Origin: Bernardetiaceae bacterium
GTDB lineage: Bacteria; Bacteroidota; Bacteroidia; Cytophagales; Bernardetiaceae
Reading direction: 5' to 3'
Assembly (NCBI GenBank): GCA_020832465.1
Contig: JAFIER010000158.1
Coordinates: 1 to 54,057, forward strand
Length of the DNA: 54,057 nt
The number at the start of each line of letters is the position of its first letter. The first letter of the stretch is position 1. Below, in pieces: positions 439-51,298 of this stretch. Position numbers and translations under genes: made by a program. Below the pieces are notes generated by a model, which was not told where the DNA came from, searched no databases, and saw nothing but the letters and a program-made list of their open reading frames with translations.

Positions 439-560
439 CATACTACTATACATTTTTCCATAGTATGAGGTTTGCAAAGCCCACGCTATGAAAAAATAGG
501 CTTAGAAATAACATTTTTCAAAGCAATGCTGTTTCTGTCTGGCGAATGTGTATTATTATG
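439..560 (+). mobile_element. MITE-like element, family 1, copy A (122 bp, perfect 9-bp target duplication)
   Basis: The element begins CATACTACTATACATTTTT and ends with a decayed inverted copy (GAATGTGTATTATTATG). Inside are a first hairpin (CATAGTATGAGGTTTGC paired with GCAAAGCCCACGCTATG) and a second hairpin related to AAATAACATTTCT. The 9 bases ATTTTATTC stand immediately left (430-438) and right (561-569), a perfect direct repeat as expected from transposition. The right end is 31 bp from the ferritin start codon. No coding capacity. Confidence 0.88.
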
Positions 561-1314: not shown

Positions 1315-3372
1315 TCAATTCAAATGTGCTATGAATTGCTCAAGCTCTTTGAGGCTATTGATCTCTTTATAATCGAAATTGGGCGTGTGCACTGAAGAGA
1401 TTTTAATATCTTCTAAGCCTACAAAGAGTCTCCCATTTTCTTTTTTGATAGCCATAAGCGTAGCTTGTCTTCTTTTAGGTACATTATCAAATCGGTTATA
1501 ACCGCCGTAGCTGCTCATGACAGCATTGATATTTTTGAAGATAAGTCTTAGGCTTTCTCCGCTACCAGCTTTGACGATAAGATCAGTCTTGAGCGCAGCG
1601 GGCATTTTCTTGAACCGGTCGCAATTTAGCCAACCGAGTTTTGATGAGGTGATGACGTAATCTAGTGTTTGAGCAACTTGTGCTGTTTTACCTTCTTTCA
1701 AACTATTATCAAGGATTTCGGTGTAAGCCTCTTTGCTATAACAGAGTAGATACGCCGTTTCGCGGAGTGCTTCTTTGGGACGCGCTTCCCAATATTGTTT
1801 TTGTACATCAATGACCATTGTGAGCACAAAAGAGGGGGCATCACCTTCATAAGGTAATATTTCGCCCCAGCCTGTGCGCTGCCTACGCGCTAATCTTCTT
1901 ATCGTCCTGCTCGTGTTAGGGAAGATTTGGTTGAGCAGCGAAGCATCACCCTCTCCGCGTGCGAGATGAGACATATAATTTGCCTGAAAGGTTTTATAGG
2001 GAATATGCTGGTAGAAATACATAGGCATAAGGTTCTGCACCCACGGGGATTTATTAAACTCAATTGCTCTACCTCCCCTCATTGGTGCATAACGCCCCTC
2101 CATTTTATAACTGTATTGTCCAGCAGAAAACTGATATTCTAAAAGCTGCATCGCCTGACTTTCTGTAATGTTAGGGCTATTTAAAAGCCGCATTTCGCCT
2201 CTACTATCGAGCGTAAAAAGCAACTGAACAGTATCGGTCTCGACGGCATCGGCTGACAGCATTTTACTATCGTCAAAGTCTATCTGACGGTATTCCCTTA
2301 TCAAAGAATCCAGACTCGGATTGCCATTCACTCGCCGCACATATCGGTCTTGCGTGTCGCCTATGATACGCGATACCAGTTGGGTTTCTATATGGTCTGG
2401 TTTTTTAGACGCATAGTATTTTTCTAAGGGCTTAAATTTTTTGTAATGAAAATTAGTCTCAAAACGTGTATAACGCAAGGCTACAGCGGGAATAGCGCAT
2501 TGGTAAGCCTGGTCTCCGCCTTTGAGGTCTTCTACGATGGCATTACTGTGCTCTGAGTTGAGTATTTTTTTGTAGATGCCCTTGCGCGCCTTAGGATTTT
2601 TGACTTTTGTACGTTGTGAGGCGGCAGTGTTTTGCGCTTGCAAGGCTTGCCAATTTGTAGCTGGCTGATGGCTTGCATTATTTGAAACAAAAGTCTGCAT
2701 GCCTTCTTCAGATTCTACTTTGGTGTTTTGCTTGGGCATAGCGATTTCTATATTTTTACTGGGCGCAAGCTGTACTTTTTGACCTTCGGCGGTCGCTTCA
2801 ATATAAATCATTCCACCGCTTTCTAAAATCTGATTGTCGGCGTGCGTAGCTAATCCACAGAGAATAATATCACTTTTTTTATAATACTCACGCACCTCAA
2901 CGCTCACTGGAGTACCAGCCGCTACGGGGCTACCATCGGCATAGACAAAAGCCAAAGGCGGAATTGTGATACGTGTACCTTCTTTGCAGCTAATGGTTTG
3001 CTCACTTTCGTCCATCGCTATGCTGAAAGTTTGTACCTCCTTCTTTTTCAGGATAAAATTATTGATATCCTCATCGGTCAGAGTAGCGGCAAAACCTTGT
3101 GCTTGTGGCTCGGGACGGCGTGCTTTATCGCTTGTAGGCTTCGTTTTAACAGGCTTGGTTACGCTTATTTCTGTCTCAATATTTTGATTTTCAAGGGTTT
3201 CTTGGGGCGTAGCGGAAGGCTCGGGCGCAGGCTCAAGAGCTATCTCTTCGGTAGCGGGTTCTTGCTTCGCTTGTTTGTCATTTTCTGGCTGGCAGCCGAA
3301 AGCTACAAATACAAAAGATAAGCACAAGAGCAAGCGAAGGCTCTCTACATAAAAATTTGATTCTTGTTTCAT
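1315..3372 (-). CDS. Large outer-membrane-type lipoprotein, paralogue A
   Basis: 685 residues with a hydrophobic N-terminal segment ending in a lipobox (VFVAFGC, Cys27), then a Pro/Glu/Thr-rich linker to about residue 90. It is homologous along its length to the protein at 4993-6993. Shared blocks are NNFILKKK near 105, ESGGMIYIEATAEG, a GMQTF-x5-N block, PATNWxA, SFVLTMVIDxQKQ, SSxLGWxNCD, LIFKNIN and a C-terminal NSLxELExxxAxLN. The 130-220 block (inflexible Ile-Pro-Pro strand, YADGSPV, GLATHA) looks like a ZU5/Ig-like beta domain. Function is unknown; it is probably an envelope structural or surface lipoprotein. No enzyme motif seen. Confidence 0.75.
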   Translation of the reverse strand: MKQESNFYVESLRLLLCLSFVFVAFGCQPENDKQAKQEPATEEIALEPAPEPSATPQETLENQNIETEISVTKPVKTKPTSDKARRPEPQAQGFAATLTDEDINNFILKKKEVQTFSIAMDESEQTISCKEGTRITIPPLAFVYADGSPVAAGTPVSVEVREYYKKSDIILCGLATHADNQILESGGMIYIEATAEGQKVQLAPSKNIEIAMPKQNTKVESEEGMQTFVSNNASHQPATNWQALQAQNTAASQRTKVKNPKARKGIYKKILNSEHSNAIVEDLKGGDQAYQCAIPAVALRYTRFETNFHYKKFKPLEKYYASKKPDHIETQLVSRIIGDTQDRYVRRVNGNPSLDSLIREYRQIDFDDSKMLSADAVETDTVQLLFTLDSRGEMRLLNSPNITESQAMQLLEYQFSAGQYSYKMEGRYAPMRGGRAIEFNKSPWVQNLMPMYFYQHIPYKTFQANYMSHLARGEGDASLLNQIFPNTSRTIRRLARRQRTGWGEILPYEGDAPSFVLTMVIDVQKQYWEARPKEALRETAYLLCYSKEAYTEILDNSLKEGKTAQVAQTLDYVITSSKLGWLNCDRFKKMPAALKTDLIVKAGSGESLRLIFKNINAVMSSYGGYNRFDNVPKRRQATLMAIKKENGRLFVGLEDIKISSVHTPNFDYKEINSLKELEQFIAHLN

Positions 3373-4992: not shown

Positions 4993-6993
4993 TTATCCTT
5001 TGTTCAAAAAGGCTAGTTTTTTCTCAAGTTCTGCAAGGCTATTCACGGGTTTATAATTGAGCGCACCGATAGGCGCATCAGAAATTTGGACTTCCTCTAA
5101 GGCTACCATGAGCTGTCCTTTTTCCCGTTTTACAGCCATGACAAAGGCAGGCTCACCTTTAGGCACACTTGCAAAAGTGCGCATGCCGTCTTTGGCGCTA
5201 CTCTTCATAATAGAGTTGATATTTTTGAAAATAAGCCTTGTCGGTACTTGCTCTTGAACGAGCAAATCCACTTTTCGCTCATTGGGCACGTCCCAAAAGA
5301 CATCGCAATTTATCCAGCCCAAAGAAGTAGAAGATAGCATATAGTCTTCTAAATCAGCGACGTGTCCAGCTTTTAAGCCCACTCTTGCAAGGCGTTCGCG
5401 ATAAGCCTTTTGATTATCCTCTATGTCGTAGATATAATAAGAGGTTTGGAGTTTGTAGCTCGATTGGTCAAACTCCCAATGTTGCTTTTGCCAATCTATA
5501 ACCATAGTTAGTACAAAACTCACATCACTACCTTTATAAGGAATTTGAAAATCCTGTGCTTGGCGTTGCTGATAGGCAAGTTCTCGTTTGGTTCTAAGTG
5601 GTCTAACTGTGTTTGCCGCCTTTTCCCATAGACTACCACTTACAAAAAATGGACGCTCATACCAGCCGTGGCGCTTCTTGTGTGATTTAGAATGTAGTTG
5701 TTTGATTTTATGAAACATTGCTTTCTCGAGTGCTGGTAGTACTTTCATTTGAGTGCCTCCAGTAATCAAAACGGGATTTACCTCCAAAGGATTTTTAGCA
5801 TTTGAACGCATGATTTCATAATGCAAAGCATGCTGACTCTGTCCTACAAAATGAACACCTTGAGCGTGAAAATTCCCATATTTATCCATCGTAAAAAGCA
5901 TTTTCAAAGTATCAGTATATACTAAATCGCTATCACTCGGACCGATATATCTGCTATCATAATTATCAAAGTTCATGGTATAAAACAGTGAATCTGTTTT
6001 GCTTTTGTGCCTGAAATCATGAAGTAGCGAAATACTAGCGTTTGCTGAACGAGTTCTAAAAGAGCTGAGACGCTGTATATCTAATTTTGCTGGTTTTTTC
6101 TTCGCATCGACCTGCGTAATAGGCTCGAAGTCTGACGGAAAATTAGTCTCGAGCTTCGTATAACGCAACTCAGTAGCGAGTACTGTGTGCGATATGAACT
6201 CATTGTCATCTTTACGCTCAATCTCTACAGCTTTATGCTTGGGGTTAATTTCTTTTTGGTAGCGATAGCGCAAAGGGGGCTTACGCACACGCTGCACTTT
6301 AGCCGGCATACCAGTAGCTTCCCAATTCGTAGCGGGGCTTTCAGCGGGGTTGTTTGCCAAGAAAGTTTGCATACCTTTTCGAGAGCGCACTTGGGTTTTT
6401 TCCTTAGGCATTTTTATATCAATTTTTTTTTCCGTGGCGAGCTTGAGCGGCTTGCCCTCTGCCGAAGCAGCGATATGAATCATACCCCCACTTTCTAAAA
6501 AGCGTTCACCAGCGTTCGTAGCTAAGCCACTAAGTATCATATCACTTTTGGTAAAATATTCGCGCAACTCTATACGAACCTCCACACCTGACTCAAGTGG
6601 CGTACCATCGGTATAAACAAAAGACTCTGGTACGATACGCACCGTTGTGCCCTCTTCGCCAAATATAAACTCAGGTTCATTTGTAGGAAGGTACTCATGA
6701 ACTTGTACTTTTTTCTTTTTCAGGATAAAATTGTTAATCTCCTCGTCAGAGATAGAACGTGCAAAGCTTGTAGGATAGCGTGCATTATCGTTATGATTAG
6801 ATGCAATTGTAGGCTCTTCTTCAGAAATAAGAACTACATCATCGTTGTGCTCTGCGAGATTAGTCTCGGTGAGCATTGGTTCTTGTTGGCTGGATTGATC
6901 GCTCTCTGACTGGCATCCCCAAAGCAATAAAAGCACACAAAGGGCAATAAGTCCAATAGGACTGAAGGGATAGAATTTTGATTTTTTGTACAT
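4993..6993 (-). CDS. Large outer-membrane-type lipoprotein, paralogue B
   Basis: 666 residues with a signal peptide and lipobox (LLLLWGC, Cys27), then a Ser/Glu/Asn-rich linker. It is a clear paralogue of the 1315-3372 protein with the same block order: NNFILKKKKVQ, a YTDGTPLE strand, ESGGMIHIAASAEG, GMQTFLANN, PATNWEA, SFVLTMVIDWQKQHWE, SSTSLGWINCD, LIFKNINSIM and a NSLAELE tail. The middle third (about residues 260-480) is poorly conserved between the two. Function unknown. The conservation suggests a duplicated gene kept for a related surface role. Confidence 0.75.
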   Translation of the reverse strand: MYKKSKFYPFSPIGLIALCVLLLLWGCQSESDQSSQQEPMLTETNLAEHNDDVVLISEEEPTIASNHNDNARYPTSFARSISDEEINNFILKKKKVQVHEYLPTNEPEFIFGEEGTTVRIVPESFVYTDGTPLESGVEVRIELREYFTKSDMILSGLATNAGERFLESGGMIHIAASAEGKPLKLATEKKIDIKMPKEKTQVRSRKGMQTFLANNPAESPATNWEATGMPAKVQRVRKPPLRYRYQKEINPKHKAVEIERKDDNEFISHTVLATELRYTKLETNFPSDFEPITQVDAKKKPAKLDIQRLSSFRTRSANASISLLHDFRHKSKTDSLFYTMNFDNYDSRYIGPSDSDLVYTDTLKMLFTMDKYGNFHAQGVHFVGQSQHALHYEIMRSNAKNPLEVNPVLITGGTQMKVLPALEKAMFHKIKQLHSKSHKKRHGWYERPFFVSGSLWEKAANTVRPLRTKRELAYQQRQAQDFQIPYKGSDVSFVLTMVIDWQKQHWEFDQSSYKLQTSYYIYDIEDNQKAYRERLARVGLKAGHVADLEDYMLSSTSLGWINCDVFWDVPNERKVDLLVQEQVPTRLIFKNINSIMKSSAKDGMRTFASVPKGEPAFVMAVKREKGQLMVALEEVQISDAPIGALNYKPVNSLAELEKKLAFLNKG

Positions 6994-12078: not shown

Positions 12079-12123
12079 AGAATTAGAAATAACATTTCTG
12101 ACAGAAATGTTATTTCTAATTCT
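12079..12123. repeat. Perfect 22-bp-arm palindrome in the leuS leader
   Basis: AGAATTAGAAATAACATTTCTG, one spacer base, then its exact complement. It belongs to the solo-palindrome group (see 29473, 32480, 37171, 47692). It lies between the -7-like element (12044) and the leuS start codon (12178), so a transcript from that promoter would carry the hairpin in its leader. Confidence 0.9.
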
Positions 12124-14971: not shown

Positions 14972-15072
14972 GGGTGTGCGTCAAGTTGGTAAATCGTATT
15001 AGGTAGTTTCAGAACTAACATTTCTGACAGAAATGTTAGTTCTGAGCTAATTTAGCAAGGATGTCGTACACC
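14972..15072 (+). repeat. Family-2 repeat, copy between leuS and aspartokinase
   Basis: About 101 bp: GGGTGTGCGTCAAGTTGGT ... GGTAGTTTCAGAAC, a perfect palindrome core AACATTTCTGACAGAAATGTT, then GAGCTAATTTAGCAAGG ... GTCGTACACC. The ends are imperfect inverted repeats (GGGTGTRCGTCAA versus GGTGTACGACAT). No clear target duplication. Confidence 0.75.
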
Positions 15073-15140
15073 TGTGGTATTTATATGGGCATCTAAGAGG
15101 GTTAAATTATTACGAAATCAAAAAACAAAAAAATTGAATT

Positions 15141-16489: not shown

Positions 16490-16575
16490 ATATTGCTATA
16501 TATTTTGCATAGCGTGGGGGTTGCAAAAATGGGCTTAGAGATAACCTGTCTCAAAGCAATGTTATTTCTGGGGAG
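16490..16575. mobile_element. Family-1 MITE-like remnant
   Basis: Contains TTTTGCATAGCGTGGGGGTT and GGGCTTAGAGATAACCTGTC followed by AAAGCAATGTTATTTCT, the two internal parts of family 1 (compare 439-560, which has the same AAAGCAATG variant). Both terminal repeats are lost. Confidence 0.6.
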
Positions 16576-20342: not shown

Positions 20343-20436
20343 CATACTACTATACATTTTCTATCCAGCAATAACATTTCTTTGAGAAATGTTATTGCTA
20401 AGCCCACGACGCTATGCAAAAATTTATAGTAGTATG
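20343..20436 (-). mobile_element. MITE-like element, family 1, copy C (94 bp, 8/9 target duplication)
   Basis: CATACTACTATACATTTTC at one end and AAATTTATAGTAGTATG at the other. The second hairpin is intact (GCAATAACATTTC / GAAATGTTATTGC), the first reduced to GACGCTATGC. Flanks are ATTTCAGCT (20334-20342) and ATTTCAACT (20437-20445), identical at 8 of 9 bases. It lies between mreD and PBP2 within the operon. Confidence 0.82.
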
Positions 20437-22035: not shown

Positions 22036-22157
22036 CATACTACTAAACATTCACTAGCCAGCAATAACATTTCTCAAAGAAATGTTATTGCTAAGCCCAT
22101 TTTTGCACAGCGTGGGGTTGGCAAACCCCACGCTATGCAAAAATGTATAGCAGTATG
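22036..22157 (-). mobile_element. MITE-like element, family 1, copy D (122 bp, perfect 9-bp target duplication)
   Basis: CATACTACTAAACATTCAC at the left, AAAATGTATAGCAGTATG at the right. The second hairpin (GCAATAACATTTCT / AGAAATGTTATTGC) and the full first hairpin (GCGTGGGGTTGGC / CAAACCCCACGC) are intact. AAATTAGAA occurs at 22027-22035 and again at 22158-22166. It is inserted between mreB and mreC in the operon. Confidence 0.92.
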
Positions 22158-27207: not shown

Positions 27208-27300
27208 CATACTACTATACATTCGTTAGCCAAAAATAATATTTCTCAAAGAAATGTCTTTTCTAAGCCCATTTTTTATGGAAAAATGTATAGTGGTATG
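27208..27300 (-). mobile_element. MITE-like element, family 1, copy E (93 bp, perfect 9-bp target duplication)
   Basis: CATACTACTATACATTCG at the left and AAAATGTATAGTGGTATG at the right. The second hairpin is present (AATATTTCTC...GAGAAATGTCTTTT, partly decayed); the first is mostly deleted. GTTGTACAT is present at 27199-27207 and at 27301-27309. It lies 49 bp upstream of the gene at 27350. Confidence 0.92.
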
Positions 27301-29472: not shown

Positions 29473-29509
29473 ATAGAACTAACATTTCTGCCAGAAATGT
29501 TAGTTCTAT
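29473..29509. repeat. Solo palindrome, 18-bp perfect arms
   Basis: ATAGAACTAACATTTCTG, one base, exact complement. It differs from the 12079 and 32480 palindromes by AACTAA versus AAATAA, changed in both arms. Confidence 0.9.
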
Positions 29510-32479: not shown

Positions 32480-32520
32480 AATTAGAAATAACATTTCTGA
32501 CAGAAATGTTATTTCTAATT
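32480..32520. repeat. Solo palindrome, 20-bp perfect arms
   Basis: AATTAGAAATAACATTTCTG, one base, exact complement. It lies between the convergent genes ending at 32455 and 32545, where no other terminator exists, so it may act as one despite a weak T run. Confidence 0.9.
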
Positions 32521-35162: not shown

Positions 35163-35270
35163 TATACTACTATATCTTTTTGCATAGCGTGGGGTTTGAA
35201 AACCCCATGCTATGCAAAAAGGGGCTTAGAAATAACATTTCAGGCCGAAATGTTATTTCTAAAATTCGGT
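35163..35270 (+). mobile_element. MITE-like element, family 1, copy F (right end decayed)
   Basis: TATACTACTATATCTTTTTGC, full first hairpin (GCATAGCGTGGGGTTT / AAACCCCATGCTATGC), GGGGCTTAGAAATAACATTTC, palindrome right arm GAAATGTTATTTCTAA. The right terminal repeat is not recognisable and no duplication was found. Confidence 0.7.
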
Positions 35271-35727: not shown

Positions 35728-35881
35728 GGGTGTACGTCAAGTTGGTAAATCGACTTAGGTAGTTTCAGAACTAACAGTTTTTCGAAAACTCTTAGTTTTT
35801 GATGCTTAGTACATTATAGAAATAACATTTCTCAAAGAAATGTTATTTCTGGACTTAATTAGCCAAGTTTTCGTACACCCC
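35728..35881 (+). repeat. Family-2 repeat upstream of alkB, long form (about 154 bp)
   Basis: Left end GGGTGTACGTCAAGTTGG, right end CGTACACCC (9-bp exact inverted termini). It contains two palindromes: a decayed AGAACTAACAG/CTCTTAGTTTTT and an intact AGAAATAACATTTCT/AGAAATGTTATTTCT. AACACCA stands on both sides (35721-35727 and 35882-35888), a possible 7-bp target duplication. Confidence 0.7.
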
Positions 35882-37015: not shown

Positions 37016-37170
37016 TCTTCAGATACAGATTAGCCTATGACACAGAAGCCGTTTAAAAAATAATCTGAAAACCAACTAAATACTTATAAGTATTTGCATA
37101 AGTTTAGTTTGCATTACTTATGTGTTTGGTGGGGACAGCAAACACGACGATAGGAGCTGTCTATGGCTGA

Positions 37171-37213
37171 CTTTTAGAACTAACAGTTCTGGCAGAACTG
37201 TTAGTTATAAAAG
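37171..37213. repeat. Solo palindrome with AGTTCT core
   Basis: CTTTTAGAACTAACAGTTCTG, one base, CAGAACTGTTAGTTATAAAAG, one mismatch pair. It has the G/C-swapped core (CAGTTCTG / CAGAACTG) also seen at 47692-47732. Confidence 0.85.
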
Positions 37214-37321
37214 TCCTCTCGTTTTCAAGGAGAAGCTGGGAGTGGTTGAAAAGCGCATCTACGCCATTTAAAGGCTAACTTTATTGCATTTTAAGAAACG
37301 TTTTTAAGTAGCCTCACAAAC

Positions 37322-45577: not shown

Positions 45578-46292
45578 ATTTTTATGATAGGGATTTTATA
45601 TAATATGTAAGCATAGCTTAGAACTAAGAACTATATTTTGATGCAAAATACAAAAAAAAATTAAGAATACAAGTAAAATAAAACCCACGTGTTTACATCA
45701 GGCTTAATTATAGAAATAATATTTCTGACAGAAATGTTATTTATAGGCTAATTTAGCAAAGCTCTCGTGCACCCGCGATAAACTTTGGGCAACATATTTC
45801 TTGGATGCTACCTAAGTCGATTTATCAAAAGCAAGCATTCAAACGGTTTAAAAAAAACACAACAAGTATTTGATTTGAGAAACCGACACTACCTAAATCA
45901 AGCCTACCCTAAAAATCCTGCATAATGTAGCAGTGTAGAACTTGCAGTCTGTGCCTTTCATACCAGAACAGACTAAAGTCTATTCTACAGAAATCTCGCC
46001 AATCATTATCTCGAAAACCCTTATTGACTTTTTACAACAACAATTATATAACAATATCTATATATATTGAATAAATGCATATACAATTTAGTATGATATA
46101 GGCTTAAATCTGTAAAAATAAATCATAAATCTGTATATTTATTACTTGATATAAACTGGTCTGATATTGTATTAGAATCGACCTCAAGTGGTCTTTTTAA
46201 ATAAATAACATTTTATTTATTTATACAAACACTTGATTATCAATTTATTATTTTTTTTAATGGTTTTTTAAGTCTAAAAAAGCACTTATTTT
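45578..46292. other. Long AT-rich intergenic region
   Basis: About 700 bp. It holds the family-2 copy at 45689-45774, a fragment GCTACCTAAGTCGATTTATC (45819-45838) that matches the inner left arm of family 2 in reverse, and long A/T-rich stretches without coding potential. Confidence 0.55.
45689..45774. repeat. Family-2 repeat, short form
   Basis: GTTTACATCAGGCTTAATTATAG, palindrome AGAAATAATATTTCTGACAGAAATGTTATTT, GGCTAATTTAGCAAAGC, end TCTCGTGCACCC. Same layout as 50521-50608. Confidence 0.7.
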
Positions 46293-47691: not shown

Positions 47692-47732
47692 AATTAGAAC
47701 TAACAGTTCTGCCAGAACTGTTAGTTCTAATT
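47692..47732. repeat. Solo palindrome, 20-bp perfect arms, AGTTCT core
   Basis: AATTAGAACTAACAGTTCTG, one base, exact complement. Versus 32480-32520 it differs at two positions per arm, each matched by the complementary change in the other arm. It lies 44 bp before the TonB-receptor-like gene. Confidence 0.9.
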
Positions 47733-51239: not shown

Positions 51240-51298
51240 TTATAAATGACATTTCTCTGAGCCATGTTATTTCTGGCCGTCGAATGTATAGTAGTATG
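51240..51298 (-). mobile_element. Family-1 MITE-like remnant, copy G
   Basis: ACATTTCTCTGAGCCATGTTATTTCTGG, then CGTCGAATGTATAGTAGTATG, a perfect terminal repeat. The other half is lost. It lies just upstream of the pseudouridine synthase gene. Confidence 0.7.

Follow-up and report, generated by a model that had tools for sequence, protein, structure and literature searches.

The arms of P, a 33-nt palindromic hairpin made of two 15-bp arms and a 3-nt loop, change in concert from copy to copy, and the main cause of this covariation, if not a complete account of it, is probably template switching between the tightly spaced arms. This reading is favoured because the loops occur in both orientations, because E2, one of the MITE families carrying P, keeps its own loop class, because an unrelated hairpin (Q) covaries while the arms of TIRs do not, and because no clear preference for G.T pairs is seen. 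Mechanistically, DNA synthesis through the tight hairpin would sometimes switch template to the opposite arm. A fold-back switch would copy one arm onto the other, homogenising the arms and perhaps extending the symmetry into the flanks, while a switch to the opposite strand would invert the loop; the arms would thereby keep their complementarity while their sequence changes. Part of the copy number of P, at least, would then come about as a by-product when MITEs transpose. The covariation can be explained with no role of P as a host signal, and selection on a conserved core may act besides. A functional hairpin is usually proven by compensatory base changes. In P, however, loops occur inverted, a G.T bias is not clear, and an unrelated hairpin behaves alike, so that copying alone may produce the covariation. 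If this most likely reading holds, P is a natural record of a template-switch copying error. Since its copies number hundreds per genome and many are oriented by their flanks, it would then become possible to measure in a bacterium how often template switching happens and how long its tracts are.

The P hairpin and the covariation of its arms

The pattern AGAANTAACANTTCTGNCAGAANTGTTANTTCT, with at most three mismatches, has nine matches in the window, i.e., the whole stretch of 54,057 nucleotides that was analysed, against none in 100 dinucleotide shuffles. The whole genome (4.60 Mb) contains 619 matches and none to the reversed pattern. A 937-kb sample, consisting of the window and the non-overlapping stretches L019-L078 (20% of the genome, partly picked from contigs with P matches), yielded 147 copies at up to three mismatches and 316 at up to eight, while the reversed control gave none up to eight. 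When folded as single-stranded DNA, six window copies each form a single hairpin (z -7.7 to -11.1). A search of the window against Rfam gave no match over the gathering score.

The five palindromes of the original prediction are all present where it had placed them, and all are stand-alone copies; this term designates copies with no TIR of the MITE families E1, E2, or E3 found nearby (n = 143 in the sample), some of which sit in E8 or other repeats or resemble E2 remnants. The perfect 45-nt palindrome at 12079-12123 (P 12085-12117, loop GAC) has its stem extended by 6 bp (AGAATT/AATTCT), adjoins the upstream side of a likely LeuRS start and reaches -18.2 kcal/mol in the DNA fold (z -11.1). Two copies have a GCC loop, namely those at 29473-29509 (P 29475-29507, arms AGAACTAACATTTCT) and 47692-47732 (P 47696-47728, arms AGAACTAACAGTTCT). 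Convergent ORFs lie on either side of the remaining two, at 32480-32520 (P 32484-32516, loop GAC) and at 37169-37215 (P 37176-37208), the latter with one broken pair inside P and a 7-bp stem extension (GACTTTT/AAAAGTC).

The compensatory nature of the arm changes, first proposed from these few copies, is confirmed by column-pair covariation in three copy sets. Among the 143 stand-alone copies, stem partners make up the top four of 1081 column pairs, and flank pairs -5 to 0 rank 10-17. Stem partners also occupy the top four ranks in 104 distinct copies from four genomes of other families, where each of the four Watson-Crick pairs is represented at position 5 of P. For 153 distinct MITE-embedded copies, stem pairs are found at ranks 1, 2, 5, and 8, and strong subfamily linkage is seen too (5-23, 23-29, 5-11). 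As copies of P are not independent, such scores overstate the number of events, and non-stem pairs (e.g., 5-11) also score high.

Symmetric two-sided changes amount to 364 in 316 copies of P versus 104 after shuffling, and to 63 versus 10.7 within the A5/T11 subfamily. The same is observed for hairpin Q, with 30 symmetric changes in 40 copies versus 9.2 shuffled. In contrast, the TIR arms of 38 E2 elements, a median of 90 bp apart, show three versus 6.0 shuffled, and the E3 TIRs (outer 9 nt, 20 pairs) none versus 0.4. The complementary change had been said to occur always; it does occur, but one-sided changes outnumber symmetric ones, with 371.9 versus 27.6 between nearest-neighbour arm types (180 distinct arm pairs), and most recent change in the arms is one-sided decay. 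Regarding single positions, other Watson-Crick pairs are found in 22, 25, 56, and 43 of the 143 stand-alone copies at positions 2, 3, 5, and 11, respectively, and in 0-3 copies each at positions 1, 4, 6, 8, 10, 12, 13, and 15; unpaired cases exist at every stem position (6-23 copies each). Because symmetric changes cluster at few positions and unpaired cases are found everywhere, the core of P may be under constraint as well, or may have arisen recently from a common source.

MITE families carrying P and the orientation of their loops

P lies inside at least three TIR-bounded families with differing TIRs, and the claim that it forms the core of further repeat families holds for E2 and E3, as well as for E1 and some copies of E8. 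E1 (~90 bp) has the ends GGTAGT...ACTACC and 8-bp target duplications in 18 of 22 copies (shuffled 1.2), E2 has the TIR CATACTACTATACATT and 9-bp duplications in 18 of 38 (shuffled 0.6), and E3 has the imperfect TIR GGGTGTACG and 8-bp duplications in 14 of 28 (shuffled 0.5), one mismatch being allowed in all three counts. TIRs together with a target duplication of fixed length identify these P-carrying families as MITEs, so that one hairpin module is common to several of them. Since their ends and target duplications differ, these putative non-autonomous TIR elements imply different DDE-type transposases. E8 (GGGTGCAATTCA...) exists both with and without P. An E1, E2, or E3 TIR lies near 173 of the 316 copies of P in the sample, and 77 of these have one on either side. 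The sample's 24 listed copies of E1 are short or broken off at contig ends. Loci fetched from genomes G085, G124, G147, and G156 comprise 19 stretches bounded by E1-type ends; 16 hold P, all of them in G085 and G124, and the other three look like chance end pairs. Of 17 such stretches in G085 and G124, 8 have 8-bp duplications.

Regarding the window, an E3 element lies on the plus strand at 14972-15073 (P 15011-15043) and a long one with two hairpins, also on the plus strand, at 35728-35880 (P2 35767-35799, P 35818-35850), while a minus-strand P at 45712-45744 stands beside an E3 end sequence read on that strand from 45774. E2 elements are found on the plus strand at 439-560 (with Q; P 504-536, E2-sense loop CAA) and on the minus strand at 20343-20436 (P 20367-20399, E2-sense arms AGCAATAACATTTCT, loop CAA), 22036-22157 (with Q; P 22060-22092, arms as at 20367, E2-sense loop TTG, i.e., inverted) and 27208-27300 (degenerate P 27232-27264, E2-sense loop TTG). 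The left part of another, with TIR, Q (~35177-35220), and P (35228-35260), lies on the plus strand at 35164-35260, and degenerate copies in E2 flanks occur on the same strand at 16537-16569 (loop CAA) and 51242-51274 (loop CTG). The copies starting at 15011, 20367, 22060, 35228, 35818, and 45712 come in addition to those of the original prediction. Q (TTTTTGCATAGCGTGGGG...), the second hairpin held by E2, is unrelated to P in sequence and shows paired changes in both arms (window 453-496, 22098-22145, and 35177-35220).

As flanks give the E2 copies an orientation (anchor GGGCTT[P]GGC; two positions reading on both strands dropped), their loops can be read in a common sense: CAA occurs in 18, TTG in 15, CTG in 6, CAG in 3, and others in 6 (n = 48). 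In E1 of G085 and G124 (n = 39, one dropped), TTG is found in 15, CAA in 11, TTA and TAA in 3 each, and others in 7, while a strict anchor leaving out E2 copies gives for E3 (n = 27, two dropped) GTC 6, GAC 3, TAA 3, TTA 3, GGC 3, GCC 2, and others 7. In the near-identical E1 family of the window's own genome (G000), the loop is TTG in 23 of 23. The two window elements at 20343-20436 and 22036-22157 have the same arms with opposite loops. Between flank-nearest neighbours, positions read on both strands being left out, the loop is the same in 16 cases and flipped in 24 for E2 (20.0 same expected), 18 and 16 for E1 of G085 and G124 (17.1 expected), and 9 and 13 for E3 (11.2 expected). Loop orientation is independent of flank similarity, with agreement about random. 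Loop class is another matter: GNC loops are present in 1 of 48 E2 copies versus 79 of 268 other copies (Fisher p 7e-6).

E1, E2, and E3 resemble bacterial MITEs such as RUP, NEMIS, ERIC, and Nezha (named in PMC3733652) and MITECca01 of Cardinium (~240 bp, derived from IS982 and present in 169 copies), in that they are short, have TIRs but no coding sequence, make target duplications, and occur at high copy number, mostly between genes. Unlike in these known elements, one hairpin module is common to several families with differing TIRs and duplications and also exists outside them. BOX elements of pneumococcus, modular boxA-boxB-boxC repeats, vary in how many internal hairpins they contain. They are comparable as modular short repeats of varying hairpin number (cf. 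E3 with P and P2), although P, unlike BOX, is common to TIR families with different ends.

Several individual elements can be mentioned besides. At L198:7369-7510 (G085), one E1 has inserted into the P hairpin of a second E1, and an 8-bp repeat resembling ACAATGTT lies on either side. An E1-like element of the same genome (L174:6963-7043) pairs perfectly over 79 bp, loop aside, while E1 arms normally differ; it looks like whole-arm copying. An E3 copy at L042:4254-4362 has three consecutive P arm units, as expected of slippage between short direct repeats within P. Another dispersed palindrome, CGAAGCTGGAGCTTCG, is found at L022:1404, L032:16253, L046:16706, and elsewhere, often as inverted pairs and inside E3-type elements. 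The window also contains two minus-strand ORFs, 1315-3372 (685 aa) and 4993-6993 (666 aa), without a Pfam match; they have repeated stretches in common and look like paralogues.

Template switching as the probable cause, and its alternatives

Copying through a hairpin, one of the two causes put forward in the original prediction, is supported by the loop inversions. Spacer inversion and arm homogenisation, which characterise template switching, are found here in closely spaced arms and are absent in distant ones; single events are not observable in these data. According to published work, template switching homogenises arms and inverts spacers (PMC8604942) and both makes and maintains hairpins (PMC8794818). 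Template-switch (quasipalindrome) mutagenesis, as covered in these papers and in PMC7202029, involves arm homogenisation, spacer inversion, and stem creation as in P. What differs here is the setting: template switching is inferred over hundreds of copies of one repeat within a single bacterial genome, where flipped and unflipped loops are counted. The flank symmetry of stand-alone copies (see below) and the E1-like element at L174:6963, perfectly paired over 79 bp, speak for template switching as well. A search of the open-access literature returned no paper combining "repetitive extragenic palindromic" with "template switching". Some observations fit less well: pure neutral template switching would not predict symmetric changes to be so uneven across stem positions, and the mostly one-sided neighbour differences, the few extended stems in MITE copies, and the gene-3'-end bias (see below) are further misfits.

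Such misfits bring in selection, the other cause put forward, which would preserve either a hairpin or a dyad recognised by a protein, be it a terminator, a stabiliser of mRNA 3' ends, or the site of a DNA-binding protein, while compensatory mutations restore pairing one by one. As an explanation of the covariation it is unlikely. In its favour, symmetric changes are clustered at few positions, a few single copies look like terminators (see below), the core TAACATTTCT/AGAAATGTTA is common to families f1 and f3, and copies with extended stems are enriched at gene 3' ends. In 59 of the 143 stand-alone copies, the stem is extended by 4-11 bp of complementary flanking bases (symmetry run of at least 4; shuffled 7.0), versus 20 of 172 MITE-embedded copies (shuffled ~15). 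These extensions partly have the common form AAATTTT[P]AAAATTT and are partly locus-specific, and GNC loops are found in 33 of 59 extended versus 13 of 63 unextended stand-alone copies. By gene calls made as a simple longest-ORF choice, the 54 intergenic extended copies comprise 20 between convergent, 30 between tandem, and 4 between divergent genes, compared with 14, 39, and 17 for the remaining stand-alone copies (by subtraction), 27, 88, and 34 for MITE-embedded copies, and 449, 1478, and 987 for random intergenic points. The bias of extended stand-alone copies to gene 3' ends therefore suggests selection or target choice.

However, a clear excess of G.T on the sense strand is missing, with GT/TG mismatches numbering 19 versus 20 AC/CA in stand-alone copies at tandem genes and 33 versus 25 in MITEs. 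No T-tract follows the 59 extended stems on average (mean T fraction 0.27-0.46 versus 0.342 for intergenic DNA) and, while a few single copies resemble A-stem-T terminators (L033:3629, L035:6559, and L059:17396), it is many non-P hairpins between convergent ORFs that have the ordinary A-tract/stem/T-tract look instead. Moreover, inverting a loop takes two or three base changes for no gain in pairing, and the unrelated hairpin Q covaries too. An identity of P as intrinsic terminator was rejected for the lack of an average T-tract, and an RNA terminator or other RNA-level selection for this and for the lack of a clear G.T bias.

Ectopic gene conversion, in which a palindromic donor would replace a copy in either orientation so that both arms change and the loop flips, is an improbable source of the covariation. 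It would go along with the hundreds of near-identical copies and with arm variants common to several element families, but it would also mix the loop classes, and replacement by other copies is disfavoured because E2 kept its own (GNC 1/48 versus 79/268 elsewhere) while orientation is randomised. It leaves the locus-specific symmetric flanks unexplained, and 33 nt is short for homologous recombination. Gene conversion alone, named in the original prediction as a competing explanation, is thus disfavoured.

There is also little probability that P is an independent hairpin parasite, spreading by template switching of nascent DNA with neither a transposase of its own nor target duplications. Such a parasite would invade unrelated MITE families and terminator-like sites, and its insertion signature would be inverted, not direct, flank copies. 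P had been proposed as a possible original mobile unit; it is indeed the core of several families, but neither a clean empty site nor a fixed-length duplication was found that would show independent mobility. Around the 143 stand-alone copies (boundary shifts 0-12; lengths 5, 6, and 8), there is no fixed-length target duplication, the best signal being 6 copies at length 6 versus 0.72 shuffled. The search of the sample for flanks joined without P gave 214 junction-spanning matches, 11 of them for stand-alone P, with no clean empty site among the matches listed; those inspected, among 40 listed of the 214, are other repeat copies with or without the hairpin. Between E8 copies with and without P, the difference spans more than P itself. 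Nine matched locus pairs of G124 and G085 offer one comparable P beside a matched gene, present in G124 and absent from G085, at a gene end that cannot be aligned outside the gene.

A site-specific invertase or a cruciform-cutting recombination, flipping P in place with arm symmetry as a side effect, is very improbable. Loop flips would be expected of it too, and both loop orientations do occur at one site of oriented elements; yet flipping alone neither homogenises arms nor extends symmetry into the flanks, and Q, of unrelated sequence, has the same arm behaviour. Two further identities of P were rejected: fused ends of a larger IS (eight half-P sites, with no opposed pair within 4 kb) and a single motif resembling an uptake sequence, the 10-mer AGAAATGTTA being found outside P 15 times versus 2.5 expected, an excess that is small beside 316 copies of P.

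Distribution across genomes and comparison with REP systems

With up to two mismatches, AATAACATTTCTNNNAGAAATGTTATT matches 9 of 390 genomes of the order, with 625 matches in the window's own genome, 70 in G085, 28 in G124, 24 in G147, 22 in G156, and 1-2 in each of four others; P recurs in Cytophagales MAGs of other families. Within the window's own family, none of the other ten genomes has a AATAACATTTCTNNNAGAAATGTTATT match, except G008 with two; a search of G008 with a shorter core gave four matches and one for the reversed control. In a phylum sample of 395 genomes, to which G085, G124, G147, and G156 do not belong, the core with at most one mismatch is found only in the window's own genome. 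No exact match to P was found in IMG/VR viral contigs and none to a 61-base query in plasmids, and a search for related loci using a neighbouring protein as query found nothing. Among Cytophagales-type bacteria, the short repeats to which P belongs have a patchy distribution.

A reading of P as the REP of some Y1/RAYT tyrosine transposase, moving as REP or REPIN, is the least credible of the explanations considered and has hardly any probability. The likeness to REP, BIME, and REPIN repeats, which depend on the enzyme of another element, lies in the very high copy number of short intergenic palindromes; stand-alone copies without target duplications, three Y1_Tnp genes in the window's own genome, one of them over the REP-transposase cut-off, and some Y1 gene in all five P-rich genomes would agree with it as well. 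However, a REP is defined by a GTAG (or CGTC) tetranucleotide at the foot of the palindrome, according to PMC3733652, while the feet of P are AGAA-type, variable between loci and without a fixed GTAG or CGTC. P lies away from the RAYT gene and is carried by MITEs making 8-9-bp target duplications. The protein over the NCBIfam REP-transposase cut-off, encoded on contig C105 (88.3 versus 80 bits; 86.2 in a six-frame search), is flanked by two copies of another palindrome, ACCCTTTAGGGT (L062:1083 and L062:1788), and the 4.8-kb contig contains no P. The stretches fetched beside the three Y1 genes (0.2-1.5 kb) contain no P at up to six mismatches either. Among 24 genomes, REP_Tyr_transpos matches (E at most 0.001) occur in 5 of 5 P-rich genomes but also in 15 of 19 others, with up to 33 in G001, which lacks P; matches over the REP cut-off are found in three of the five P-rich genomes (not G085 and G124) and in eight of the 19 others. 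Because the C105 RAYT gene is flanked by ACCCTTTAGGGT and not by P, P is not classed as a REP, a disfavoured assignment in spite of its being a high-copy intergenic palindrome like REPs. The comparison with REP sequences and TnpA-REP made in the original prediction is therefore not upheld: P lacks the GTAG/CGTC feet, and the sole protein over the cut-off is flanked by another palindrome.

The C105 gene itself lies between two ORFs that appear, from their translations, restriction-modification-like, in a small REPtron-like arrangement unrelated to P. Behind another of the Y1 genes, the IS200-like one on contig C51, a 33-nt repeat of CCTCGGTAGTGGTCGAAGACCCTCCCGATGG type is found (L059:4243-4277), which recurs in L040, L046, and L025 and is a candidate REP of the C51 enzyme.
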